This document shows positions 1 to 46,484 of a DNA stretch of 64,000 bases, piece by piece (within the stretch, counting starts at the first letter, position 1; every line of letters starts with the position of its first letter). The position numbers and the translations under genes are program-made. Source of the stretch: Picocystis sp. L7 (taxonomy: Eukaryota > Chlorophyta > Picocystophyceae > Picocystales > Picocystaceae); assembly GCA_020975725.1 (NCBI GenBank), contig QXJR01000003.1:930001-994000 (forward strand), written 5' to 3'. Below the pieces are notes generated by a model that made no database searches, was not told the DNA's origin, and was given only the letters and a program-made list of their open reading frames with translations.

Positions 1-472
1 TCCTTTTCGAAACGTAAGGGTTTGGTCGCCGGTGCCAAGCGCCTCGCACACCGGTGCCCACTCCTTCAGCGCCTTCCCGACCCTTGGAGCGGTGCTTGCA
101 TCCCTTCCTGCAGTCGCGCGGCAGATGTTCTTGGGCGAACTCGCACGCCTATCTGCCTTCCATTCCCTCGGAACACCTGTACAGCAATGCTGCAACGCGT
201 CCATCCAGGTTTCGCGCGATGCAGTCTCGACTGCGCGCCGATTCCACCACGGGTGCCTTGGGTCAGAAACGGACATGAACCCAACTGGAAACGGGTTCGA
301 TTGGAAACGTGCCTGGTTTCGAAGCGGACAGACCCGGTCGCTCGGCTTCGGTCCAAGACCCGCGAGGAGGGAGACCCGAAGCGAATTCATCGATATCTCT
401 GCCGGAGATATCGATGAGAAAAGGTAAGATGTCGATGGATGTGCGGATGGTCCAGATCGGCAGACGTGCGAG
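1..472. other. Intergenic, no gene recognised
   Basis: Several overlapping short open frames occur on both strands, but none has a recognisable domain and they overlap each other. The stretch holds the inverted repeat at 387-417 and presumably the promoter of the sirtuin gene that follows. Confidence 0.5.
387..417. repeat. 13-bp inverted repeat with 5-bp loop
   Basis: The arms TCATCGATATCTC (387-399) and its exact reverse complement (405-417) flank a 5-bp spacer. It lies about 55 bp upstream of the sirtuin start and resembles the GAGATCTCGAT-type motifs seen before other genes in this window. It could be a dimeric protein-binding site in the promoter. That role is inference. Confidence 0.6.
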
Positions 473-1567
473 ATGGAGATGTCGGAAAGACGCGATGGCA
501 TTACGCCAAACGGAAAGAAGGAAGACCATGAAGAGCGGTCCATAAAAAGTACGAGATATCCAATGCGAAAACGGGCCAGAACGACCGTCGGAAATCTTCC
601 CAGAGTGGATGGTCTCACAGCGCTGTTGAGTGACCAACTGGGGAAGCTGCTCATCTTTACAGGGAGCGGAATTTCCTCTTCCTCAGGTAAGGAAACGAAT
701 CGAGCGGCACCGAGGTTCAGGTTTCTAGGTTGAGAGACTGATGAGAAGGAGATTCCGACGGTAGGAATGTCGACTTTTTCGCAAAAGGGAGGGCTGTACG
801 ATCGTGCAAAGTCGAGGTTTGGTGTTTCGGATGGCATACGCCTCTTTCACTGGGATTTCTATCAGAAAAGGCGACGAGATGCAGAAGCGTTCTTCGCCGA
901 TTTCTACGTCGAATGCACCAAGGCAAGACCGACATCTACACACGAAGGGTTGGCACAACTGGCATTGCAGGGCAGGGTGCAGCGCCATTACACGCTGAAC
1001 ATCGATGATCTGGCCACTCAGGTCGGCATCGATACCTGGCATCCCATACACAATCCTGCAGGTGTGACCATCGAGATGCATGGGAACATCAAAGAGCTGG
1101 TTTGTCCAAAGTGCAAGGTAAGACTTCCCCTCACACCTGCTCATGCGAAGCGTTTGAAGTCCAAGCGTGGAATCTGCTGCCCCTGCGACGAGTGTAAGGG
1201 CACTGATATGCGCCCAAGGATCATGCTCTACGACGATAAGCAGTGTGAACTCATAGTTGCAGGCAGTGATGATGAGAAGCTGTGGGAGACCATGGAGTTG
1301 GACGTTGCTTCCGCCGATACTATCCTTTGGGTGGGCATTTCTTTCAAGCAATCTGCAAGCACAGAATATTTCAAGAAAGTACGGAAGATGCTTGTGAGCT
1401 GCGGTAAACAAGAGCACACTCGCCACTTTGTCATCAACCCAGACAGCCAAACCTGCTTTAACATCCAGACGGCATTGAGCAACTTTTCAGGCTTGCATGT
1501 TGTGGAAGTGCTTGAGAGGGCAGATGCGGTGATTCCACTGCTGGCTCGAATGTCCACACCTGAATAA
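473..1567 (+). CDS. Sirtuin (NAD-dependent protein deacylase, Sir2 family)
   Basis: Two exons are proposed: 473-686 and about 735-1567, with a donor at CCTCAG|GTAAGG. The acceptor is the only one I found that keeps the frame, and it gives a roughly 48-bp intron. Exon 1 ends in the NAD-binding motif FTGSGISSSSG (family usual: GAGIS..SG). Exon 2 carries GGLY, the NAD-site motif TLNID, the catalytic histidine in EMHGN, and a zinc ribbon CPKC...CCPCDEC. A Rossmann half follows with ILWVGISF and FVINPD. The family removes acyl groups from lysines using NAD. The histidine and zinc ligands look intact, but the usual TQNIDGLH reads TLNIDDLA. The basic N-terminus (RKRAR) suggests the nucleus. The extra residues created by the proposed acceptor leave the splice site uncertain. 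Confidence 0.85.
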
Positions 1568-2090
1568 ATCCCAGCACATCGAGATTCGAATGGATGGCAT
1601 CCGTTTGTTGCTGGGTGGATTGCGTCTTCCTTGACTGTCCAAATTCGGTCTCGTCTGTCCTAGGTCCGCACCGCCCGAGGGCGGGACGCTCCTCTCCTCG
1701 TCGGCATATGGGCGTCGATGTGCACCTCCTGACCAAAACCTGACGATAGAGTCCCGATCGGGTCGTCGCCCGAAGGGGGACCCCTCCCCTAGGATGCGGC
1801 CTCCACTCCCTCGTCCCTGCCTGTCCTCCTGCCACGTGGCGGCCGATGGTGCGTCCTCACTCGCCCCCCCTGTTCCTCGCTGGAGAGCTTCTCCCGACCC
1901 CCCGGAGAATATTCTCTCTCCGGGAGCGTCCCTCGGACGCAGGATCTCCCCTTTCCATTTCCGGGTTCGGATGGGAACAGACCCGAAGGCTTGATTGGGA
2001 GCCGTCCTTTCAGGATCGGGTCATCCGAACCATCACGTCGACGGTTCGGACCACAACTTCGACGTGCTTCGCGACGCCACCACCATCGCC
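1568..2090. other. Intergenic spacer / promoter of CotH gene
   Basis: No gene seen. The second half contains GCCACGTGGC (about 1835) and GGGTTCGGATGGG (about 1964), a weak variant of the TTCGAAAGG motif found near other gene starts. Confidence 0.5.
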
Positions 2091-4187
2091 ATGGCGCGGA
2101 GATGGAACGCCTCCTCGACCTTGGTATCCCTGCTCTTGATCGGTGTAGGAGCTCTGGAAGACAGTAACAATGGGAGGGATCTCCTGGAGGCACGACCCAT
2201 GGCCACACAGGCTACGGACGAAAGGACAACGGCACTCGGACAATCCTGCACGTTCCCGTTCGAGTTCGAAGGATCTCTAGCGAACGACTGTGTGGAATTC
2301 AATGGCCAAGAGTGGTGCGTCGTTGCCAATGGACAATGGGCCGTGTGCGATCCAGCATCGCCGGAACAGACGTCCATCCAGAATGGAGAACCCAAACCAG
2401 TTGTCATCAACGAGGTCGTCCATGCACCTGACCAAATCTCGAACGATAAGGATTGGATCGAACTCAAAAACATGGGCAAACAAGACCTAGACCTCACGGG
2501 ATATGTGGTCAAAGACGACAAACTCGATGAATTGGGTTTCGTCATCGGAAGCACTCCCCTCTGCAAAGGAAGAGGAAGATCCATTGTGCCAGCCAATGGC
2601 TACCTCCATCTCATCCGCGATGCTGAATGTGGGTTCCCCTTTGGCCTTGCATCCGACGAGGAAGTTTCCCTTTTTGATCCAGAAGGCATACTGGTGGACA
2701 GTGTGTCCTGGAACGAGGGAGATGCACCCAAAGGACTCTCCTGGGGGCGCCTTCCCGATGGAACCGGGGAGTTCACAAATACTGTGCCCACGCCCCTCCA
2801 GCCAAACGTGGAAGGATCCTTGCCCGCAACCACGGAGGGAGACTGTTGCGCACGCATCCAAGAGGAACTCCCAACTTTCTTCACCGACCATCCTGTTGTG
2901 GTAATTGATACCTTTGGCCAGGAGTTGATCAAGGCAAGCAGGGCCAAGTCACACGTTTGCTCATGCACTTGCACTGGAGCCTTTGGTTGCGCAGCAACAG
3001 AATCCAAGGATGTCAACAGCACTGCGGCCGTGCGTGTGCGAGGTAACTCCAGTGCGCGCGACCACATTAAGAAATCTTTCGCAGTGGAATTCCAGGATGA
3101 ACAGGGCAATGCAATAGATGCCAATTGGTTCGGACTATCCAAGGATGATGACTGGGTCCTGTATGGACCAGAGCCAGATGTGACCTTCATGCGTAATTTC
3201 GTCACCTACCACTTGGGGCGCGAGTCAGGCGAATATGCTGCTAACACCAAGTTTGTGGAGGTTTTTCTGAATACTGACAACAGCAAAAAACTCGACTATG
3301 ACAAACATTACCATGGCCTATATGTAGCTATGGACCGAATTGAAAGAGGGTCAGACCGTGTGAATGTAACAAAACTTGACCCCCAGGTCGACCCCAGCGG
3401 TGGATATATCTTCAAGTACGACAATGACAACATTGATGCTGATGACATCGTGTTCCGAACCAAGGCCACAGATCTTGAAATGGTGCTGGTGTATCCGAAA
3501 GGGGACGGCGTGTGGGTGGAAGATCTGCAGCCTTTGATAAGCTATGTAGATGATTTTGAGGCTGCACTCTTTGCCGATAATTTCCAAGACCCTGTAAATG
3601 GCTATGTGCAGTACATGGACAAGGCTGCGTTCATAAACTACCTATTGGTGGTGGAAATTTCAAAGAATCCTGATGGATACCGAGGGTCTACGTTCATCCA
3701 CAAGGATAGTGGTGGTCCGTTGGCCATGGGCCCCCTGTGGGACTACAATGAAGCCTTTGGCATCTGCTGTGGATTTCCTCTGAGAGGATGGAACCCAGAA
3801 GAGGCAGACAGTGAGGAACGTCGAGAGCGTACCATTGGGCCGGCCGGCTGGCGCTTTGATGTCTGTATCGAGGAAGATGGACCGTGGTGCATCGATGATC
3901 CCGTCGATGGAATGTCCCAGTGGTACCAGCGCCTTTGGCAGGACCCAGCTTTCCGACTTGCAACCGCAGAACGCTGGCAAGAGCTCCGTGCAGGTTCCTT
4001 CAGCAATGCAGCAGTGAGCACGTTCTTGTCAGAACAATCACAGCTTATTCGAGTTGCTGCGGAACGCGACTACGAGCGGTGGCCTGAAAAGGTCCAAGGG
4101 CCGTTTGCACAGGAAATCCAAATCATGCGCAACTGGATCATCCAACGCATGGAATGGATGGACGAAGAACTTTCGAAGGAATTCTAA
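2091..4187 (+). CDS. Secreted FN2-like / lamin-tail / CotH-kinase protein
   Basis: A single exon encodes 698 residues. The ATG at 2091 is chosen because a signal-peptide-like segment (MARRWNASSTLVSLLLIGVG) follows directly, while the longer open frame upstream lacks one. Next comes a short cysteine module (about residues 50-90; CTFPFEFEG...C...WC...WAVC) resembling fibronectin type II. It is followed by a lamin-tail domain from about 103 (VVINEVVHAP, DWIELKN, GYVVKDD, SWGRLPDGTG) and then a CotH kinase domain from about 300. Matching CotH motifs are RVRGNSS, FMRNF, GLYVAMDRIE, GGYIFKYDND and GPLWDYNEAFG. CotH proteins are atypical secretory-pathway kinases, known from spore coats. The order secretion signal, FN2-like, LTD, kinase suggests an extracellular or wall role (inference). 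A shorter paralogue lies at 5482-6219. Confidence 0.85.
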   Translation: MARRWNASSTLVSLLLIGVGALEDSNNGRDLLEARPMATQATDERTTALGQSCTFPFEFEGSLANDCVEFNGQEWCVVANGQWAVCDPASPEQTSIQNGEPKPVVINEVVHAPDQISNDKDWIELKNMGKQDLDLTGYVVKDDKLDELGFVIGSTPLCKGRGRSIVPANGYLHLIRDAECGFPFGLASDEEVSLFDPEGILVDSVSWNEGDAPKGLSWGRLPDGTGEFTNTVPTPLQPNVEGSLPATTEGDCCARIQEELPTFFTDHPVVVIDTFGQELIKASRAKSHVCSCTCTGAFGCAATESKDVNSTAAVRVRGNSSARDHIKKSFAVEFQDEQGNAIDANWFGLSKDDDWVLYGPEPDVTFMRNFVTYHLGRESGEYAANTKFVEVFLNTDNSKKLDYDKHYHGLYVAMDRIERGSDRVNVTKLDPQVDPSGGYIFKYDNDNIDADDIVFRTKATDLEMVLVYPKGDGVWVEDLQPLISYVDDFEAALFADNFQDPVNGYVQYMDKAAFINYLLVVEISKNPDGYRGSTFIHKDSGGPLAMGPLWDYNEAFGICCGFPLRGWNPEEADSEERRERTIGPAGWRFDVCIEEDGPWCIDDPVDGMSQWYQRLWQDPAFRLATAERWQELRAGSFSNAAVSTFLSEQSQLIRVAAERDYERWPEKVQGPFAQEIQIMRNWIIQRMEWMDEELSKEF

Positions 4188-14373: not shown

Positions 14374-14964
14374 TTACTTTTTGACTCGTTTGCTTGCTGG
14401 TTTTGTAGATGCATACAATCCTTCCACCCCCCTATGGTCCACGCCTGTCCCTGTTGTTTCCTCTTCCAATCGCTCCAATCGCTCATTGTAAAGCAAGAGC
14501 AGATTTTCCACCTTCAGAAGCTGCTCCTCCACCTGCGCCATGCGCTCTTCGATCTGATGCTCTTCTCTGGTCTCCACTTGCCCATTTTCTGGTAGATCTT
14601 CTCCGAGCGTGAGTTCGTGTTCTCCCAGGACGTAGTTTTTCAAGCGGTCAGAATCGAGCGAGAATGCGTCTCGCATGAGGTCCAGCGCCCGGGGTGTGGT
14701 GAGATACACCTTGCCTACTTGCGCATCGCAACCAGAACATTTGACGGCGAAGAAAGTGCTACCTGCATCGACGCCTTCCTTGGAAGTCTCCGGTTCGTCG
14801 TCCAGCACTCGCACGTGGCTGGCGGCCCTCAGGGAGATGGTCCTCAGCCCTGCGTGGCTACACGCGAAAGCAGAAGAGTCTCCCAGCACGGCCGCACACC
14901 CCAGGCACTGGAAAACCACCGCAGAAGACGGCGGCTGTGTGCGGAGTTGCGCTTCTTCCGCCAT
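14374..14964 (-). CDS. Mis18-domain protein (centromere CENP-A licensing family)
   Basis: A single exon of 196 residues. The ATG at 14964 is chosen because the much longer open frame upstream is only the tandem repeat. The Yippee/Mis18 zinc fold has two CxxC pairs (CLGCAAVLG near residue 20, CSGCDAQVG near 75). These are followed by VYLTTPRALDLMRDAFSL and LKNYVLGEHEL, which align with human MIS18A. The C-terminus is a predicted coiled coil (ERMAQVEEQLLKVENLLLLY), the oligomerisation part in Mis18. In animals and fission yeast the complex primes centromeres for new CENP-A loading. The basic tail (KPASKRVKK) fits nuclear entry. It is transcribed away from RPB5 across the 104-bp repeat array. 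Confidence 0.85.
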   Translation of the reverse strand: MAEEAQLRTQPPSSAVVFQCLGCAAVLGDSSAFACSHAGLRTISLRAASHVRVLDDEPETSKEGVDAGSTFFAVKCSGCDAQVGKVYLTTPRALDLMRDAFSLDSDRLKNYVLGEHELTLGEDLPENGQVETREEHQIEERMAQVEEQLLKVENLLLLYNERLERLEEETTGTGVDHRGVEGLYASTKPASKRVKK

Positions 14965-14998
14965 CTCGACCTTCCCGTGGGTTTGCCTTCCCCTCCTT

Positions 14999-15010
14999 CC
15001 TTTCGAACCC
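14999..15010 (-). promoter_or_regulatory. GGGTTCGAAAGG promoter motif, Mis18 side
   Basis: Read on the minus strand this is GGGTTCGAAAGG, 35 bp upstream of the Mis18 ATG and just before the repeat array. The same or nearly the same word occurs near other gene starts (12597, 28971, 41302, 48530, 59057). A core-promoter or transcription-factor role is inference from recurrence and position. Confidence 0.4.
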
Positions 15011-15013
15011 GAT

Positions 15014-15845
15014 ACATCCCCGATCGATCGTCTCCGATGGAAAGGACCATGGGTCCGATCGATCCCCGAGGTAGACCCGGGTAGGTGCCCAGGAACCCGA
15101 AGGAAGGGAAGAGAGGGACATCCCCGATCGATCGTCTCCGATGGAAAGGACCATGGGTCCGATCGATCCCCGAGGTAGACCCGGGTAGGTGCCCAGGAAC
15201 CCGAAGGAAGGGAAGAGAGGGACATCCCCGATCGATCGTCTCCGATGGAAAGGACCATGGGTCCGATCGATCCCCGAGGTAGACCCGGGTAGGTGCCCAG
15301 GAACCCGAAGGAAGGGAAGAGAGGGACATCCCCGATCGATCGTCTCCGATGGAAAGGACCATGGGTCCGATCGATCCCCGAGGTAGACCCGGGTAGGTGC
15401 CCAGGAACCCGAAGGAAGGGAAGAGAGGGACATCCCCGATCGATCGTCTCCGATGGAAAGGACCATGGGTCCGATCGATCCCCGAGGTAGACCCGGGTAG
15501 GTGCCCAGGAACCCGAAGGAAGGGAAGAGAGGGACATCCCCGATCGATCGTCTCCGATGGAAAGGACCATGGGTCCGATCGATCCCCGAGGTAGACCCGG
15601 GTAGGTGCCCAGGAACCCGAAGGAAGGGAAGAGAGGGACATCCCCGATCGATCGTCTCCGATGGAAAGGACCATGGGTCCGATCGATCCCCGAGGTAGAC
15701 CCGGGTAGGTGCCCAGGAACCCGAAGGAAGGGAAGAGAGGGACATCCCCGATCGATCGTCTCCGATGGAAAGGACCATGGGTCCGATCGATCCCCGAGGT
15801 AGACCCGGGTAGGTGCCCAGGAACCCGAAGGAAGGGAAGAGAGGG
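15014..15845. repeat. Eight tandem copies of a 104-bp unit
   Basis: The unit starts at 15014, 15118, 15222, 15326, 15430, 15534, 15638 and 15742, a strict 104-bp spacing; 8 x 104 = 832 bp. I saw no difference between copies by eye. Each unit holds CCCCGATCGATCG, GGACCATGGGTCC, CCGATCGATCCCC, GACCCGGGT and a purine-rich end (GAAGGAAGGGAAGAGAGGG). The array occupies most of the spacer between divergent Mis18 and RPB5, ending 31 bp before the RPB5 ATG. Since 104 is not a multiple of 3 and the unit has no stop in any frame, it creates long false open frames on both strands. Confidence 0.97.
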
Positions 15846-15876
15846 ACGACGACGGCGGAGGGTGTGTGGAACGACG

Positions 15877-16509
15877 ATGGCGGACGCACCGCCGGATCCC
15901 ACGCGCCTGTTCCGTGTCAGGAGGACCGTGGCGCAGATGCTGGACGATCGAGGATACCTGGTGCCAAAGAAGGAGCTGGAAATGACGAGAGAGGAGTTCG
16001 TGCAACCGCCGCCCGAAGGGTTTGGACTCGCTCCGCGAAGCGAAGACCTCACCATCCTCGTGCCCAGGAGAGACGGATCCTCCGAACAGATGTTCGTTTT
16101 TTTCCCGGAAGAGGTGAAAGTGGGGGTCAAAACCATCAAAACGTACGCAGAAAGGATGAAATCCGAAAACGTGGCCAGAGCCATCCTCGTGGCCAAGTCG
16201 GCGCTCACACCGTTTGCCAAACAGTGCCTCCAAGAAATGCAGCCCAAGTACATTGTGGAGCTCTTCCTGGAGTCGGAGCTGTTGGTGAACATCACGGAGC
16301 ACACCCTCGTCCCCAAGCACCAGCTGCTGACCGGTGAGGAGAAAAGGGCCCTCCTCAACCGTTATAAGGTCAAAGAATCTCAACTTCCAAGGATACAAAT
16401 TTCGGATCCTGTTGCAAGGTACTATGGCCTGCAGCGTGGTCAAGTGGTGCGTATTGTGCGTCCTAGTGAAACTGCAGGTAGATACGTCACCTATCGCCTG
16501 TGCATATGA
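15877..16509 (+). CDS. RNA polymerase subunit RPB5 (RPABC1)
   Basis: A single exon of 210 residues, the same length as human RPB5. The ATG at 15877 follows the last repeat directly and gives MADAPPDPTRLFRVRRT. The N-terminal jaw domain (TVAQMLDDRGYLV, FFPEEVKVGVKTIKTY) is followed by the conserved C-terminal assembly domain. That domain includes HTLVPKHQLLTGEEKRALL, PRIQISDPVARYYGL, GQVVRIVRPSETAG and YVTYRLC. RPB5 is shared by RNA polymerases I, II and III. The reading frame is open far upstream only because of the repeats. Expression from a promoter made of 104-bp repeats would be unusual for a housekeeping gene. Confidence 0.96.
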   Translation: MADAPPDPTRLFRVRRTVAQMLDDRGYLVPKKELEMTREEFVQPPPEGFGLAPRSEDLTILVPRRDGSSEQMFVFFPEEVKVGVKTIKTYAERMKSENVARAILVAKSALTPFAKQCLQEMQPKYIVELFLESELLVNITEHTLVPKHQLLTGEEKRALLNRYKVKESQLPRIQISDPVARYYGLQRGQVVRIVRPSETAGRYVTYRLCI

Positions 16510-17667: not shown

Positions 17668-17885
17668 ACCCGGAGCCCACCCGGGAGGCCAACCGACGTC
17701 CACGCATCCGGACCTTCAACGCAAAGGAATCGACAGAGGGAAGCAGGGAAATCCTCGACGGGGCTGGATGATGGCATCTTCGATCGGGGTATGAAACGGC
17801 GCGGGTTGCAGAGTTCCACATCAGTTCTCGCTTGCTTCGCTCGACCACGCGTGCAGCTTTCTCCCCTTCCAACACAAGAAACACC

Positions 17886-18452
17886 ATGTTCCGCAAAGCC
17901 ATCGCCGCAATCCTGATCGGAGCCGCCGCACTGGCCTCCCCCGTCTTCGGCGCCGGACATTGCCAGACCATCGTGGAAGTGGCCAGCGGGACTGAAGAAC
18001 TCTCCACTCTCGTTGCCGCCGTTCAGGCTGCTGGGCTGGTGGATGCCCTCAATGACAGTGAGGCAGAGTACACTGTGTTCGCACCCACCAATGATGCGTT
18101 CGACGAAATCCTGGTAGCATTGGGGCTCACCCTGGAGGAGCTTGTGGCAGACACCGACCTGCTCACCAATGTGCTGCTGTACCATGTGGTCCCAGTGGCA
18201 GTGGAGTCAACGGAGACCGAAGAGTATCCCGATGGATCTGTGGTCCCCACGCTGTTGGAGGGAGAATCTCTGGAGTTGAACTTGGAGAGTGGTACAGTGG
18301 TGCCAGCATACCCATCCCCGGCCAACATCATCCAGACGGACATTGAGGCATGCGAGTCTTTCGTGCATGTGATCGACACGGTTTTGATCCCATTTGTGCC
18401 TGGAGAGGCTGAAATGGCAGACGCACCAGCGCCTGAATACTATGATGAATAG
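17886..18452 (+). CDS. Secreted fasciclin (FAS1) domain protein 1
   Basis: A single exon of 188 residues. The start at 17886 gives a clear signal peptide (MFRKAIAAILIGAAALASP, cleavage likely after VFGA). One FAS1 domain fills the rest: TIVEVASG and LSTLVAAVQAAGLVDAL, the H1 motif YTVFAPTNDAFDEI, the YH motif LLYHVVP, then VHVIDTVLIP at the end. The acidic tail (APAPEYYDE) lacks a membrane anchor or GPI-type hydrophobic end. FAS1 proteins mediate adhesion or matrix binding at the cell surface. The tandem paralogue lies 1.2 kb downstream. Confidence 0.92.
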   Translation: MFRKAIAAILIGAAALASPVFGAGHCQTIVEVASGTEELSTLVAAVQAAGLVDALNDSEAEYTVFAPTNDAFDEILVALGLTLEELVADTDLLTNVLLYHVVPVAVESTETEEYPDGSVVPTLLEGESLELNLESGTVVPAYPSPANIIQTDIEACESFVHVIDTVLIPFVPGEAEMADAPAPEYYDE

Positions 18453-19631
18453 ATAACATGGCATTAATACAAGTGATCTAGTCAACAGCCCTCAGAGGGC
18501 ACGGCTTGCACGTTTATGCCACCAATATCCTTTGTATACCTAACAGTAGTCCCATTCCCTACCCTTGTTGCAAGCAAGCACTAGGGCAAGACCACACGTG
18601 TGAGCTTCGATAGATCACCTCGTACTCAGTGCTGCTGTTGTGAATGTTCCGCATTTCCATCACAGCAGGTGTGCCCATACTTTCAGTACACTCTACATGC
18701 AGTGGCCCCCATGCAGAAACAGGGCTACGGCATGACTCAAAAGATTGAAGTTTCTTTGCTCCCTTGGTAAAGCTTGGTCCCAATGCTTCAAGCCTGGAGT
18801 CACCGTATTCTAGTGTGGCAATTTAGATCCTAAACTGTGTTGGACCCAAATTCGCCACCCAGACGTTCACGCGTAGCAATAGATACAACTTGGGGCTACG
18901 GTTGCATCGTTCACTTACGTCTCCCTGGGATTTCTGTTAGCAACTATGCCATAGTTGCACAACTTTTTGCATGATCAAATACGGTGAGTTCGGGAAAGCA
19001 ACGTAAGTCTTGCTTCCTTGACTATTGACGGGTGGGATCTTTTTTCCGTTTGAAGCAAGACCTTGGATTTTCGAAATCGTGCGGCAGTCAACAGCGCCTT
19101 CAAGATAGACGTCACCTTCATTGTGTCGAAAGGGATGGTAGTGACTTGCCAAGAGAGATAAGTTCCTCGAACTTTTCTAAGAGCAGCGACGAATGCCGGC
19201 GGTCGTGCACTCCTTTGACGAGCCGTACCACAGGCTGCCTGATTGTGACGTTGTATTTTGCAGTTCTGGTCTGTTAGGCCACGTCGCTTTGACCAACCAT
19301 GCGATCGACGTGTCGGAACAAGGCAGGCGACGTCATCTCGTAACCTCCAGATCGGATGCCGATTCGCCCCTGCGTTGTATCCCGTAGGATCGTCCAAGAA
19401 AACGATCTGGGGCGCCCTCCATCACTCTGATGGTGAAAGACATCGACCGTCGTCGGGAATGCCTACCAATGCCGCAGAGGACCTTCTTGAGAGCATGTGA
19501 TATCCTCGACGAACGCAGGCGGTTGGCATTCACCACGTGCATGAGTCCACGATGGGGTCGATGGATGGCCTCATTCCATCGATCCGCTCGAACGAGCCTG
19601 CCTCTTGTGTCTTGCAACGCCAACAGACCTC
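18453..19631. other. Spacer between fasciclin paralogues
   Basis: About 1.2 kb, no gene seen. Only short frames of 60-140 codons without domains. The last 250 bp share blocks with the promoter of the first fasciclin gene. Confidence 0.5.
19381..19402 (+). promoter_or_regulatory. Second copy of fasciclin upstream element
   Basis: CCCGTAGGATCGTCCAAGAA lies about 250 bp before the second fasciclin ATG, nearly the same distance and sequence as the copy at 17645. Confidence 0.5.
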
Positions 19632-20156
19632 ATGTTACGCACCGTTCTGGCGACAATTGTAGCGGGTGCAGCTGTCTTGCCCTGCCCTGTATTTGCAGAT
19701 GGAGCGTGCAAGACGGTCCTGGAGGTACTTAGCGAGAACGAAGAACTTTCCACATTGCTCGAGGTGGTCGAAAGCACAGGTCTTGCCGATGCACTTAACG
19801 ACAAAGAGGCCGAGTATACCTTGTTTGCCCCTGTGAACGAAGCCTTTGACCAGCTCTTGGTTGCAATGGAACAAACTTTGGAAGAACTTCTCGAAGACAC
19901 TGAAATGGTCAGGAATGGGACCCTTTACCATGTAGTGAATGGTACCATTAAATCAACAGATGTTGCCGCGTATCCGGATGGAATCGTTGTGAATACTCTT
20001 CTGGAGGGTGGGACCCTAGTCTTGAATCTGGACAGTCTGACTGTCGTTCCCACCTTTCCATACCCAGCCAACATGATCGACACGGACGTGGAGGCCTGCG
20101 GTTCTATTGTGCACACAATCGATACGGTTATGCTCCCCATTGTCCTCGAAGGATAA
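19632..20156 (+). CDS. Secreted fasciclin (FAS1) domain protein 2
   Basis: A single exon of 174 residues. The ATG at 19632 starts a signal peptide (MLRTVLATIVAGAAVLPCP). A codon earlier in the frame would put nine residues before it and is less likely. The single FAS1 domain parallels that of the first copy: LSTLLEVVESTGLADAL, YTLFAPVNEAFDQL, LYHVVNG, then VHTIDTVMLPIV. Unlike the first copy it ends directly after the domain with no acidic tail. The two have clearly diverged, so the duplication is not recent. Likely an extracellular matrix or adhesion protein. Confidence 0.9.
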   Translation: MLRTVLATIVAGAAVLPCPVFADGACKTVLEVLSENEELSTLLEVVESTGLADALNDKEAEYTLFAPVNEAFDQLLVAMEQTLEELLEDTEMVRNGTLYHVVNGTIKSTDVAAYPDGIVVNTLLEGGTLVLNLDSLTVVPTFPYPANMIDTDVEACGSIVHTIDTVMLPIVLEG

Positions 20157-24745: not shown

Positions 24746-24800
24746 GTCGCCACGTTCCTTCGCTTTTCCGACACGTGCATGTCCCCTCCCCTCCTCTCCC

Positions 24801-24846
24801 ATCGATACCTCTTCCGATCCCATCGATACCTCGACCGAGATCTCGA
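24801..24846. promoter_or_regulatory. CATCGATACCTC x2 plus GAGATCTCGA cluster
   Basis: Between the divergent S1/P1 nuclease and RPN8 genes, CATCGATACCTC occurs twice (about 24800 and 24821), then GAGATCTCGA at 24837-24846. Related words stand near the RAP gene (29241-29271), the MYND/CS gene (51745-51801) and the sirtuin (387-417). A bidirectional-promoter role is inference. Confidence 0.4.
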
Positions 24847-28664: not shown

Positions 28665-29518
28665 TGAGCCTTCTGTATCGTTTCGGAGCGTCGGTCAGCC
28701 TCGCTTCCCACCTCCAACTCCGCACGTGCTTCGACCGTCGGTCCTTGTTCCAACCTTTTCTCCTCTCGCCGGTGTTCCCGTCTTTCTTTCCTGCACCTTC
28801 TGTTTCCTTTCGAGACCCTGGCACGTCCTTCGGGCCGTCTTGTTCGTCGCTTTTCGCGGCTGCAAAGGCGTCGCGCACCACGTGCTCCGAGACGTGCAGT
28901 TCACGTGTCGTGATGGATTCGGTTGGTGCCTGGGATCGCACCAACGACAGGTAGACCCGAACCGATTCCCGGTTCGAAAGGAAAACGGTCCCCGATCGAA
29001 GCGGGAAGGCGATCGGGTTCGTGGAAGCATTCGTCCTCTGCGGGACCGGGGAGAGACGGGACGACAGAAACCGAGGGATGCCCGAATGTACGGGTCAGGG
29101 GTCGGGTGCGCGTCGAGTCCTCGAAGCGACATGCACGCGAACGGGGATCGACCGAGGTGCATCCTCTGCAGGAGCTCGTGCTACCCTCCGTCTCGCAGAG
29201 GATCCATCCGACCACGGCCCCGTCTCCTCGAAACCTCTCCGAGATCTCGATACCTTTCGAGAGATCTCGATCAGCGATAGCCGATCGCTCCCTTGCAGGT
29301 TTTTCGATCCGTCGATCTTCACGTCCCCTTGCATCTTACGGTAAACTCGACAGGATCTGCACCCAGGTCGTGTGGCAGAGAGATCCATCCCGTCAGATTG
29401 AGCGAAGCCGACGGTCTCACGAAGGCGATGGAACTGCGCTCCAGCTAGCACACGCAGCAGGACGAACCCGAAGCGGACCGACCGGTCGAGAAGGGTCCCG
29501 AAGAGAGGAAGAGGGGAA
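28665..29518. other. Divergent promoter region, transaldolase/RAP
   Basis: No gene supported. Long overlapping frames on both strands are low-complexity. Contains GGTTCGAAAGG (28971-28981) and the GAGATCTCGAT pair at 29241-29271. Confidence 0.5.
29241..29271. promoter_or_regulatory. Paired GAGATCTCGAT palindromic motif
   Basis: GAGATCTCGAT occurs at 29241-29251 and again at 29261-29271, 20 bp centre to centre, about 250 bp before the RAP gene start. See the related cluster at 24801-24846. Confidence 0.4.
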
Positions 29519-42413: not shown

Positions 42414-45400
42414 ATGGCAGAAGCTGCAGGAGCAGCAGAGGTGTTTGAAGACACACCGACGATGAGCGCAAGCTCAGGACCACAAGTGGTGTCCTACAGG
42501 ATAGATTTATCCAAGGTACCTGAGTTGGACCATTCCAACTGGATTTGTTGGAAGGAAAGGATGATGAATGTGTTGGTTGTCGCTGGCTTGCGAGATACTC
42601 TCGATGCCACGGAGGACGGACCAACAGGCATGAAGAGGAGCCTGGTAGCAAGAGGCGCTATCATGCAGACCTTGAGATCTGAGGACTTGCTGTCCCTCAG
42701 AAATCTGCAGGAAGCCAAAGATGTATGGCAGAAACTGAACAGAAAGTATGATCTCCATACTGAAGTAAGTGCACAGGCAGCCCTCGACGTGTACGATGGA
42801 GTTGCGATGCATGCTGGTGAAAAGATCAGCAAGTTCATGGAGAGGGTGGAATCACTTGCCAATCTGGTGATGAACACTGGAAGAGTGGTTTCAGAGGAGG
42901 ACATGTGCAGGAAGGTGAAAAGAGGATTGCCGTCCGAGTATCGGCCTGTCCAGTTGTCGATACAGGCGTCCGGAGTCCCGCTCACGATGGATTACTTGAG
43001 AGCTCAGTTGTTGGCATTTGAGATGACTTTGGACAGCAAGCCCAAAGGCTTGAAAGCTTCTTTGAAGAAGGGCAAAAACAGAAAGCCCAAGAAAGGGCCT
43101 GGCAACAAGACAGCAGTTTGCTGGCATTGTGGAGAGGCTGGGCACATCAAGCCCCACTGCCCCAGGAAGAATGAGGACATCAGTAAAGGAACTGATGCTG
43201 GACATGAAAAAGCAAATCATACTGCTTTCATGGCATCAGCCATTGAACAGGATGTTCAGCTGTCCAGTTGGATCGTGGACAGCGGTGCCACCGAGCACAT
43301 GACAGGATGCAGAAAATTCTTTGATGACACCCTGGAGAGTGTCAATGGTAAAGAGATCAGTACTGCAGGTGGGAACCTTCCCATTGCAGGTTCTGGAGAT
43401 GTGTATCTCTCCAGAGGAGGACACAACATTGTCCTCACTGGTGTACTCTTTGTGCCTGGACTGAAATACAATCTGTTTTCAGTACCCAAGGCAATTTCTG
43501 CAGGAGCCAGTGTCACATTTGATGACACAGGCTGCACCATCAAGAAAGGTGAAGTAGAGCTGCTGGCACAGACTCTACAGGATGGATCAATGGCACTGCT
43601 GACAGATGCAGAACTGTGGCATGCCAGGCTTGGTCATCCAAGTTTGTTTGTGTTGAAGAGCATGGGACTGCCAAGTCAGCTTCCCAAGCCATGTGTGGTG
43701 TGTCCTCAGGCCAAGATGACACAGAAACCACACCAAGCCATCAAGCAGACTTACAAGCCACTGGATAGGATCTCATTTGATCTTATGGGACCAGTAGAAC
43801 CTGAAGCACTGGGAGGTCACAGGTATGTTGTGACTGCAGTGGATGCTGCCACCAAAGCCTGCAAAGTGCACCTGGCACCAAGCAAAGATGCAGCAGCAGG
43901 ATTTGTGAAGGAGACTATCAGTTGGTTTGAGCAACGTGGAGGTTGTTCTGTCAAAGCCATCAGAACAGATAGAGGCAGTGAGTTCCTGAACAAGGAACTG
44001 ATGGAGTGGCTGAAGGACCGTGGAATCATCCATGAGAAGACTGCTGGATATGAACCTCAGCAGAATGGACAAGCAGAACGGTTAAACAGAACACTTATGG
44101 AGGGCACAAGAGCCCTGCTGATACAAAGCAACATGCCCCATTCATTGTGGGGTGAAGCAGTCAGGACTGTTGCTTATGTGAGGAACCTGGTACCTGCAAA
44201 AGGTACTGGTGATAAAAGTCCTGCTGAAATGCTGACAGGCAGCAGTATAGACCTAAATCTGTTGAAGGTATGGGGTTGCAAAGCCCTGGTGCATGTTCCT
44301 GAAGAGAAAAGGTCAGGAAAGTTGGCTCCAAGAGCCCAGGAAGCTGTCTTCATTGGTTATGAAAACAGCAGCACATACAGATTTTTGGTGAATGGACAGT
44401 TGGTGCTGTCCAGGACAGCAGAATTCTTCGAAAGTGAGCCAGGTAAGCTACATGGTTCATTTGGAACACAAGAATTGGTTATACCTGATCTGCTTGTTGA
44501 ACCTGGAAATCGCCCGTTGAGCGATGTTTCCGAAAAAGCAGAAAATCCCCCTCAGCTCCTGGAGAGCGGTAAAAGCAGTGATCAGATGGTCACAGGTGGT
44601 CAAACCAGTGTGGAAAGTGTTGTTGGTGATGGTATAGCTGATACCACAGTACAGGAAAACCTGGAAGGAACAGCACCACATGACCTGGAAAATGACAATG
44701 TGAAAAATGCAGGAATTATTTCAGATTCTGATGCAGAAAGTCGTTTTGATGAGGAAACCGACTTAACGGATCAGAATGAACAAAATAAAACGTCAAGCGA
44801 AACAAGAGAACTTCAAAGTACAGAAAAATATCATTTAAGGCAACGACAAGACGTTGACTACAGGAAACTTGCTCTTGGTTTGAAGGCTGACGTGGAATCT
44901 GAAAAGCTCCCTGCAGATTTTTCTGGTTATGAAGAAGCTATGGAAAGATCTGACGCTGATCTTTGGAAAATGGCTGTCGAAGATGAAATCAGATCGTTGT
45001 ATGAGTCTGATACATGGAAAGTTGCGGATCTCCCTGCCGGAAGAAAAGCGCTGGAGACCAAGTGGGTCTTCAAGATCAAGAAAGATGCCGCCGGTAACGT
45101 TGAACGCTACAAGGCGAGGCTGGTGATCAAAGGTTTTCAGCAAAGGGAAGGCATTGATTTTGCTGAAATATATGCACCTGTTGTGAGTAAAACAGCACTC
45201 AGAATGTTCTTGACAGTAGCAGCTGTGCAAGACCTGGAACTTGAACAACTGGATATCAAGACTGCTTTTCTGAATGCAGATCTTGTGGAAGACATCTACA
45301 TGAAGTTTCCAGAAGGGGTACAACCTGTACCAGGAAAGGTGTTGAAGCTTAAGAAAAGCTTGTATGGCCTGAAGCAAGCACCAAGGATGTGGAACAAGCT

Positions 45401-46484
45401 ACTGACCACTACCCTGAAAGAGGTGCTGGGCTGTGCGTGCAACGGTGTTGAAGAATCTGTGCTGCTCTGCAGGTCAGATACTTCAGTGTGCTACATATGT
45501 GTGTATGTGGATGATATCCTGCTGGCTTCAAGTGACAAAACATTACTGCAGAAGGTCATTGATGGACTGTGTAGTAAGTTTGATGCAAGACACTTGGGGC
45601 CTGCTCACTTGTTCTGTGGTATGGTCATGACCAGGAACAGAAAAAGCAGGATGATGCACTTGTCAGAAACTGCAAAGATAGACAAGATGCTGGAAAAGTT
45701 TGGAATGGAGAATGCAAAGGAGAGTAGAGTACCACTCTCTGAATGCATGAAACAAGGAAAGGTAGAAAGTGATGAGGAATTGGTTGTGCAGTACCAGCAG
45801 TTGGTTGGACAATTGCTTTATTTGTCAACAACGGTACGGCCTGATATTGCCCATGCAGCAGCGGTGCTATCCAGATACATGAGCAAGCCTGCTCAGGAAC
45901 ACTGGAAGGCAGCACAAAGAGTATTGAAGTACTTGAAAGGAACCAGAACACATGGTCTGTGTCTTGGTCAGCATGAACCTGTATCAGCAAATGCAGAAAT
46001 GGGTTTGGAGTTGACAGGATACTGTGATTCTGATTTTGGAACCGATGTGGACACAAGGAGGTCCAGGACTGGTTTCTTGTTCCTGCTGAATGGAAGCCTG
46101 GTGGCATGGTATAGCAAGTTGCAGAAGACTGTTGCCACTAGCACTGCAGAAGCAGAATACATGGCTGTGAGTGCTTGCGTGAAAGAAGCACTGTGGATCA
46201 GAAACTTCTTGGGAAGTTTGATGAACGGTACTTGGGATGGCATCCCAATACTGAATGACAACCAAGCTACTTTGAGGATGATCAATGATCTGAATTCAGT
46301 TTCCAGATCAAAGCACATTGACATCCAGCATCACTTTGTACGAGAACGTGCAGTGCGTGGTGAAGTGAAATTTCACTACTGTCCCACGGACATCATGTTG
46401 GCAGATTATCTCACGAAGATATTGCCATCATCAAGATTTGAAGAGATCAGAGATGCTCTTCATGTTGTGAAGAAACAAGAGTGA
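42414..46484 (+). CDS. Copia gag-pol polyprotein
   Basis: One 1,356-codon frame. The gag region (about 1-215) is followed by the zinc knuckle CWHCGEAGHIKPHC near 234. The aspartic protease motif WIVDSGATEHMTG lies near 285. The gag-pre-integrase and integrase core follow (ISFDLMGP, IRTDRGSEFLN near 519, QQNGQAERLNRTL). Reverse transcriptase has KWVFKIKKD, KARLVIKGF and YVDDILLAS near 1030. RNase H has CDSDFG near 1205, STAEAEYMA, then DYLTKIL. The integrase-before-RT order places it in Ty1/copia (Pseudoviridae). It looks whole in reading. Whether it is active cannot be judged from sequence alone. Confidence 0.96.
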   Translation: MAEAAGAAEVFEDTPTMSASSGPQVVSYRIDLSKVPELDHSNWICWKERMMNVLVVAGLRDTLDATEDGPTGMKRSLVARGAIMQTLRSEDLLSLRNLQEAKDVWQKLNRKYDLHTEVSAQAALDVYDGVAMHAGEKISKFMERVESLANLVMNTGRVVSEEDMCRKVKRGLPSEYRPVQLSIQASGVPLTMDYLRAQLLAFEMTLDSKPKGLKASLKKGKNRKPKKGPGNKTAVCWHCGEAGHIKPHCPRKNEDISKGTDAGHEKANHTAFMASAIEQDVQLSSWIVDSGATEHMTGCRKFFDDTLESVNGKEISTAGGNLPIAGSGDVYLSRGGHNIVLTGVLFVPGLKYNLFSVPKAISAGASVTFDDTGCTIKKGEVELLAQTLQDGSMALLTDAELWHARLGHPSLFVLKSMGLPSQLPKPCVVCPQAKMTQKPHQAIKQTYKPLDRISFDLMGPVEPEALGGHRYVVTAVDAATKACKVHLAPSKDAAAGFVKETISWFEQRGGCSVKAIRTDRGSEFLNKELMEWLKDRGIIHEKTAGYEPQQNGQAERLNRTLMEGTRALLIQSNMPHSLWGEAVRTVAYVRNLVPAKGTGDKSPAEMLTGSSIDLNLLKVWGCKALVHVPEEKRSGKLAPRAQEAVFIGYENSSTYRFLVNGQLVLSRTAEFFESEPGKLHGSFGTQELVIPDLLVEPGNRPLSDVSEKAENPPQLLESGKSSDQMVTGGQTSVESVVGDGIADTTVQENLEGTAPHDLENDNVKNAGIISDSDAESRFDEETDLTDQNEQNKTSSETRELQSTEKYHLRQRQDVDYRKLALGLKADVESEKLPADFSGYEEAMERSDADLWKMAVEDEIRSLYESDTWKVADLPAGRKALETKWVFKIKKDAAGNVERYKARLVIKGFQQREGIDFAEIYAPVVSKTALRMFLTVAAVQDLELEQLDIKTAFLNADLVEDIYMKFPEGVQPVPGKVLKLKKSLYGLKQAPRMWNKLLTTTLKEVLGCACNGVEESVLLCRSDTSVCYICVYVDDILLASSDKTLLQKVIDGLCSKFDARHLGPAHLFCGMVMTRNRKSRMMHLSETAKIDKMLEKFGMENAKESRVPLSECMKQGKVESDEELVVQYQQLVGQLLYLSTTVRPDIAHAAAVLSRYMSKPAQEHWKAAQRVLKYLKGTRTHGLCLGQHEPVSANAEMGLELTGYCDSDFGTDVDTRRSRTGFLFLLNGSLVAWYSKLQKTVATSTAEAEYMAVSACVKEALWIRNFLGSLMNGTWDGIPILNDNQATLRMINDLNSVSRSKHIDIQHHFVRERAVRGEVKFHYCPTDIMLADYLTKILPSSRFEEIRDALHVVKKQE

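Follow-up and report, generated by a model that had tools for sequence, protein, structure and literature searches.

In the compact genome of the green alga Picocystis sp. L7, a gene for a Mis18-like protein and the gene for the RNA polymerase subunit RPB5 lie in divergent orientation, and almost all the DNA between their start codons consists of eight head-to-tail copies of one 104-bp sequence. How could such an array have arisen, and is the number of its copies likely to matter for the expression of the two genes? We analyzed the locus within a window of 64,000 nucleotides (the whole stretch of DNA under study) and compared it with a sample of 264 kb, composed of this window and 20 stretches of 10 kb.

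Structure of the array and its flanking genes

A single tandem array was reported by TRF between the two genes, at 15014-15847, with a period of 104, 8.0 copies, 100% matches, no indels and a score of 1668. The repeat extends 0 bp to the left of the eight units and 2 bp ('AC') to the right of them, up to 15847, so the phase of the array is ambiguous by 2 bp. When the eight units were compared base by base, 0 of 832 positions differed. An earlier note on this DNA had described eight 104-bp units free of copy-to-copy differences, ending 31 bp before the ATG of RPB5; this description proved exact, coordinates included (Table 1). The note had also called for a genome-wide search for the unit. One-unit and three-unit queries against the Picocystis sp. 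L7 assembly (20.5 Mb, 30 contigs) revealed no locus beyond the array, and the single-unit search returned eight places, all within it, and no diverged copy at E <= 10; in these searches the best candidates alone were scored and very common words were skipped. Within that scope, the unit is confined to the Mis18/RPB5 locus.

In the wide sense of the term, covering head-to-tail units of more than 10 nt, as given in a passage of PMC3899988, the array (8.0 x 104 bp) is a minisatellite. It falls outside the narrow sense, with unit lengths of 10-60 or 10-100 bp according to a passage of PMC3887541, as its unit has 104 bp. Situated between the starts of two genes, it is confirmed as a minisatellite of unusual perfection.

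Table 1. Positions of the array, of the motifs in its first unit and of the adjoining genes within the window
Feature	Positions	Strand	Remarks
Mis18-alpha-like CDS, 196 aa + stop	14374..14964	-	ATG at 14964
Single-copy spacer, Mis18 ATG to array, 49 bp	14965..15013	-	purine-rich in Mis18 sense
Array of eight identical 104-bp units	15014..15845	.	TRF and direct comparison
Unit 1 of 8, 61.5% GC	15014..15117	.	direct comparison
Palindrome CGATCGATCG, unit 1	15021..15030	.	8 in window, every one inside the array
Inverted repeat GGACC-ATG-GGTCC, unit 1	15044..15056	.	CCATGG nested
Palindrome GATCGATC, unit 1	15057..15064	.	second GATCGATC within CGATCGATCG
Palindrome CCCGGG, unit 1	15076..15081	.	
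Purine run of 20 nt over the unit 1/2 junction	15099..15118	+	
Units 2-8, start positions	15118, 15222, 15326, 15430, 15534, 15638, 15742		
Single-copy spacer, array to RPB5 ATG, 31 bp	15846..15876	+	
RPB5 (RPABC1) CDS, 210 aa + stop	15877..16509	+	both Pfam domains

The identities of the genes, given in the earlier note as Mis18 on the minus and RPB5 on the plus strand, were upheld by domain and solved-structure matches. The Mis18-side protein contains the Yippee-Mis18 domain PF03226 (9.6e-25). Among solved structures it is best matched by Mis18-alpha 7sfz (2.9e-15) and the kinetochore protein mis18 (5j6p, 5hj0), which supports Mis18 over Yippee. Among the relatives of this protein are P0001 (99% identity, source jgi), P0002 (85%) and P0003 (65%). 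RPB5 has a relative of 95% identity (P0007, source lgn); among the best 120 of 2897, the named relatives that rank highest come from green algae (identity of about 63-70%), followed by those of land plants. Judged by protein identity, P0001 and P0007 show that close relatives of this genome have already been sequenced. A related DNA locus was found neither with Mis18 or a 21-bp word of the unit in viral_contigs, nor with RPB5 in genome_contigs, collections that may omit records of or near the source genome.

A separate observation is the presence of a Mis18-alpha-like protein, judged by its match to 7sfz, in a green alga. Its relative P0004, presumably from the charophyte Chlorokybus, likewise has a match to solved mis18 (6.2e-15). 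A 2022 paper states, in the portion available to us, that Mis18-alpha and -beta were not yet identified in plants (PMC9210943).

The array lies directly upstream of both gene starts. From ATG to ATG the spacer now measures 912 bp; it would measure 184 bp with one unit and 80 bp with none. Within the 70 bases that precede the ATG, purines in the sense of the gene make up 73% for Mis18 and 76% for RPB5, the mean for 55 other genes being 55%; six of these 55 are as purine-rich as Mis18 and five as RPB5. Further along the window, two neighboring genes with fasciclin domains (17832-18452 and 19605-20156, both on the plus strand) are probably a tandem gene duplicate.

Sequence content of the unit

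The palindromic words and the purine-rich end of each unit, to which the earlier note drew attention, were recovered as constant per-unit counts. Each unit has one copy of CGATCGATCG, of GGACC-ATG-GGTCC and of CCCGGG and two copies of GATCGATC, and each unit junction is crossed by a 20-nt purine run, the last of which adjoins the RPB5-proximal spacer; purine or pyrimidine runs of at least 20 are present in 1.0% of 2527 genomic 104-bp windows. When nested palindromes are included, each unit has 11 that are 6, 8 or 10 bp long, versus a mean of 3.0 in dinucleotide shuffles; 3 of 1000 shuffles and 2 of the 2527 genomic windows attain 11. Two-fold symmetry of the unit as a whole is marginal, involving 50 of 104 positions versus 43.6 in shuffles, of which 47 in 1000 have at least as many. 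Between the unit and the left flank, an 8-bp direct word and a 13-nt inverted pair, 92% complementary, were noted; these are short or of low complexity.

Similarity to other upstream regions was assessed with 55 of the 61 predicted genes; those left out were Mis18, RPB5 and any gene with less than 400 bp of upstream DNA. CCCGGG is enriched upstream of the 55 genes (7 versus 1.3 expected), and four of the top 30 hexamers enriched in their upstream 150 bp are present in the unit; as it contains 92 of the 2080 hexamers, about 1.3 are expected. A k-mer classifier, run with the focal spacer masked, found the unit upstream-like in comparison with CDS (AUC 0.80; the unit scored above 98% of CDS windows) and gave no separation between the unit and other unassigned DNA (44th percentile of upstream, 75th of unassigned windows; AUC 0.73). 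The hexamers most strongly enriched upstream of the 55 genes were AAAAAA/TTTTTT (27 versus 6.9 expected) and GGTTAA/TTAACC (9 versus 0.9), possible core-promoter elements of this alga; both are absent from the focal unit.

Upstream ATGs and predicted transcription starts

Each unit contains two ATGs on each strand. A full-length leader toward RPB5 would include 16 upstream ATGs on the plus strand, each followed by a frame that closes again after 11-15 codons. None of the 16 frames opened by ATGs on the minus strand closes before the Mis18 ATG; 4 share the reading frame of Mis18 and the other 12 do not. Because ATGs occur in every unit and on both strands, a leader containing the array should impede the translation of both genes. 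These ATGs suggest that transcription starts at the edges of the array, at a predicted distance of no more than about 50 nt from the Mis18 ATG and about 100 nt from that of RPB5. All eight units would thus be DNA upstream of both transcription starts, outside either leader. There was no Rfam match at the gathering score in the window, and the 255-aa translation across the array (15125-15889, minus strand) had no protein match at E <= 10 among 7996 candidates scored in a search where a positive control was absent.

Tandem arrays near gene starts

TRF arrays with a period of at least 10 and a score of at least 50 were merged and counted in the 264-kb sample, which gave 20 arrays, two of them in CDS and set aside. 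The focal array, with its score of 1668, stands apart from the rest of the 20, which score at most 291. It has 8.0 copies at 100% identity, versus at most 3.3 copies in the other non-CDS arrays; the two short-unit CDS arrays have 5.0 and 5.9 copies. The position of each array was judged by its midpoint relative to gene starts taken from rough models (codon-usage predictions of 61 ORFs, introns ignored). As many as 11 of the 18 non-CDS arrays are found in the 300 bp preceding a predicted gene, versus 2.6 expected (0 of 5000 permutations); the count is 12 of 18 versus 4.0 within 500 bp (0 of 5000), the class from which the focal array enters, and 14 of 18 versus 7.0 within 1 kb (4 of 5000). The downstream 1-kb control showed a deficit (1 of 18 versus 4.5 expected). 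The upstream excess was also found in a reduced set of 13, without the focal array, three T-rich arrays of one stretch (L019) and a probably coding one (L024:816): 8 of 13 within 300 bp versus 1.8 expected (0 of 5000), 8 of 13 within 500 bp versus 2.8 (5 of 5000) and 9 of 13 within 1 kb versus 4.9 (62 of 5000).

This 5' concentration in the Picocystis sample is the opposite of the pattern described, in the portion of PMC3887541 available to us, for Chlamydomonas and Volvox, where the lowest genic repeat density is in 5'-UTRs and intergenic density climbs away from genes, in a count that spans all repeat sizes. Tandem duplication thus seems common near gene starts in this sample, which favors a mutational cause, and the focal array, though striking, is an ordinary type of repeat near gene starts. 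Its eight copies lie far outside the other sampled non-CDS arrays, and the locus may have a special cause. Two-copy duplications of CGAT/TCGA-rich words of 19-21 bp were also seen at 24797-24838 and 29227-29271, each in another predicted divergent spacer.

Mobile elements in the window and elsewhere

The window contains the ORF of a copia-type LTR retrotransposon (42414-46484, plus strand) with RVT_2, rve and gag domains. Elsewhere in the genome we came upon an inverted-repeat element of about 3.8 kb (G000:C3:600994-604773; positions 95-3874 of the fetched locus L041), whose 664-bp arms are 99.7% identical and which encodes a 708-aa ORF. We had assumed it to be Mutator-like, a label dropped because the ORF has no Pfam family match at E <= 0.001. 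The word at its ends, or one differing slightly from it, was found at 14 places, among them four pairs in opposite orientation separated by about 3.5 kb.

Discussion

The array is probably a young minisatellite that originated by tandem duplication of sequence from the Mis18/RPB5 spacer and was expanded by unequal exchange or slippage. The 104-bp unit would represent the middle of a once shorter spacer of 184 bp, common to the two divergent genes and presumably serving as promoter region for both. The first tandem duplication may have taken place at the 2-bp 'AC' match at the array edge. Such edge microhomology fits end joining or template switching; as evidence of origin a 2-bp match is weak, being frequent by chance. 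Growth to eight copies could then have proceeded by unequal recombination or replication slippage, either too recently for point mutations to have accumulated or with identity maintained through the same exchange. In this way the array would multiply upstream sequence and lengthen the spacer, leaving the transcripts unchanged in length. Nine other predicted divergent spacers in the sample measure 263 and 995-5513 bp, values of which some may be inflated by undetected genes. The present 912 bp is a more usual size for a divergent spacer than 184 bp, and spacer length thus gives no support to the 184-bp ancestor. From the orientation and spacing of the genes, the spacer can be read as a divergent promoter, and we infer that the unit is part of a bidirectional one.

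The absence of differences at 832 sites limits divergence to about 0.4% per site (95% upper bound, Poisson), and supports the alternative put forward in the earlier note, recent expansion or strong gene conversion: the array is young or strongly homogenized. For comparison, the arms of the L041 element differ at 2 of 664 sites.

Several other explanations of the array were weighed against a young expansion of spacer sequence. The 834 bp of perfect identity could be taken as a sign of misassembly, the true locus having one or another number of copies. Assemblers, though, collapse tandem copies more often than they create them, the same assembly keeps the two nearly identical arms of the L041 element separate, and the edges of the array are clean against single-copy flanks, so that an artefact appears rather improbable. 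The unit might instead stem from a terminal repeat belonging to a mobile element that is multicopy in the genome. This would account for an 18-bp word that the unit shares without mismatch with a variant element end (L047); in the other eight fetched loci the element ends differ from this word at one position (element ends were fetched in part, as nine stretches). By composition, such 18-bp matches would arise by chance about 0.07 times per genome. An overlapping 18-bp piece occurs, with up to 3 mismatches, at 34 places outside the array, 14 of which are element ends, versus 6 for the reversed control pattern. Against this origin, the match stops at 18 bp and depends on one palindromic word, and the whole-genome search found no further homology of the unit. 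Moreover, its longest exact match in the 263-kb sample (focal array masked) is 16 bp, a length equaled by 3 and exceeded by 3 of 57 control upstream windows from which Mis18 and RPB5 were excluded. One 18-bp word of borderline significance, with no extension, does not make a convincing case for a transposon-derived repeat, and we give this origin very little credence. Equally little can be said for the view that the array is transcribed, either as a coding repeat that extends Mis18 or as a structured RNA leader. On the minus strand none of the three frames meets a stop within the array, and one of them joins Mis18. However, stretches of 104 bp that lack stops on one strand are frequent (13% of sampled windows), and the Mis18 relatives P0001 and P0002 begin at the same methionine. 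Since the period of 104 is no multiple of 3, the frame rotates from unit to unit and the unit is unlikely to code; on this ground, and despite the open minus strand, the coding repeat was rejected. The structured RNA element was rejected on account of the predicted fold of the unit, which is no better than that of shuffles (z of -0.62 and -0.86).

Another possibility, in line with the suggestion of the earlier note that copy number may tune both genes together, is that the array is a selected regulatory device, with palindromic sites for a dimeric factor and a copy number that sets the output of RPB5 and Mis18. The unusual palindrome density of the unit speaks for it, as does the location of the array in the divergent spacer, so close to two conserved genes. 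Promoter repeats that change expression are also known in yeast and bacteria, according to passages of PMC3899988 and PMC3516485. On the other hand, homogeneity is explained by recent neutral expansion, with no need of selection. As tandem arrays are common in the sampled 5' regions, position is by itself a weak sign of function. In a genome-wide test of natural promoter repeats in Aspergillus, moreover, 4.3% of the tested relationships between repeats and expression were significant, as stated in the part of PMC3516485 available to us. We consider a selected device unlikely. A broader proposal, in which gene starts are hot spots of tandem duplication and a bidirectional core promoter has been made eight-fold, its copy number setting a joint dose of RPB5 and Mis18, seems to us likewise unlikely. 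Among the titles listed in a literature search, none indicated a tandem-repeat locus between RPB5 and Mis18.

The young minisatellite that we favor can be compared with several known systems. Promoter repeats of yeast were reportedly described by Vinces et al. in 2009. Like such promoter minisatellites or VNTRs, the present array consists of tandem non-coding units beside gene starts; its copy number is expected to be unstable and could in principle alter factor sites, spacing or nucleosomes. It differs from them in its long 104-bp unit, perfect across eight copies, and in its location between two divergent, conserved nuclear genes of an alga, known from a single assembly. Spacer promoters of rDNA belong to a multicopy locus and are used by RNA polymerase I, whereas the present locus is single-copy and carries two protein genes. 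The resemblance to the duplicated core promoters of the rDNA intergenic spacer, as presented in a passage of PMC1215480, lies in tandem, here putative, promoter material upstream of a transcription unit. A TA repeat in the bidirectional promoter of hifA and hifB of Haemophilus influenzae affects two divergent genes, according to a passage of PMC3899988, and likewise resides within one spacer of two divergent genes; that bacterial dinucleotide repeat shifts the -10/-35 spacing, in contrast to the eukaryotic 104-bp unit described here.

Located between two conserved genes, the array offers a natural test of the role of repeat number upstream of housekeeping genes, and it is a candidate marker for strain typing. 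The 5' concentration of tandem arrays, if genome-wide, would mark gene starts as sites prone to recombination or replication events. Were copy number to set the output of both genes, one reversible type of mutation would determine the joint dose of an RNA polymerase subunit and a centromere-licensing protein.
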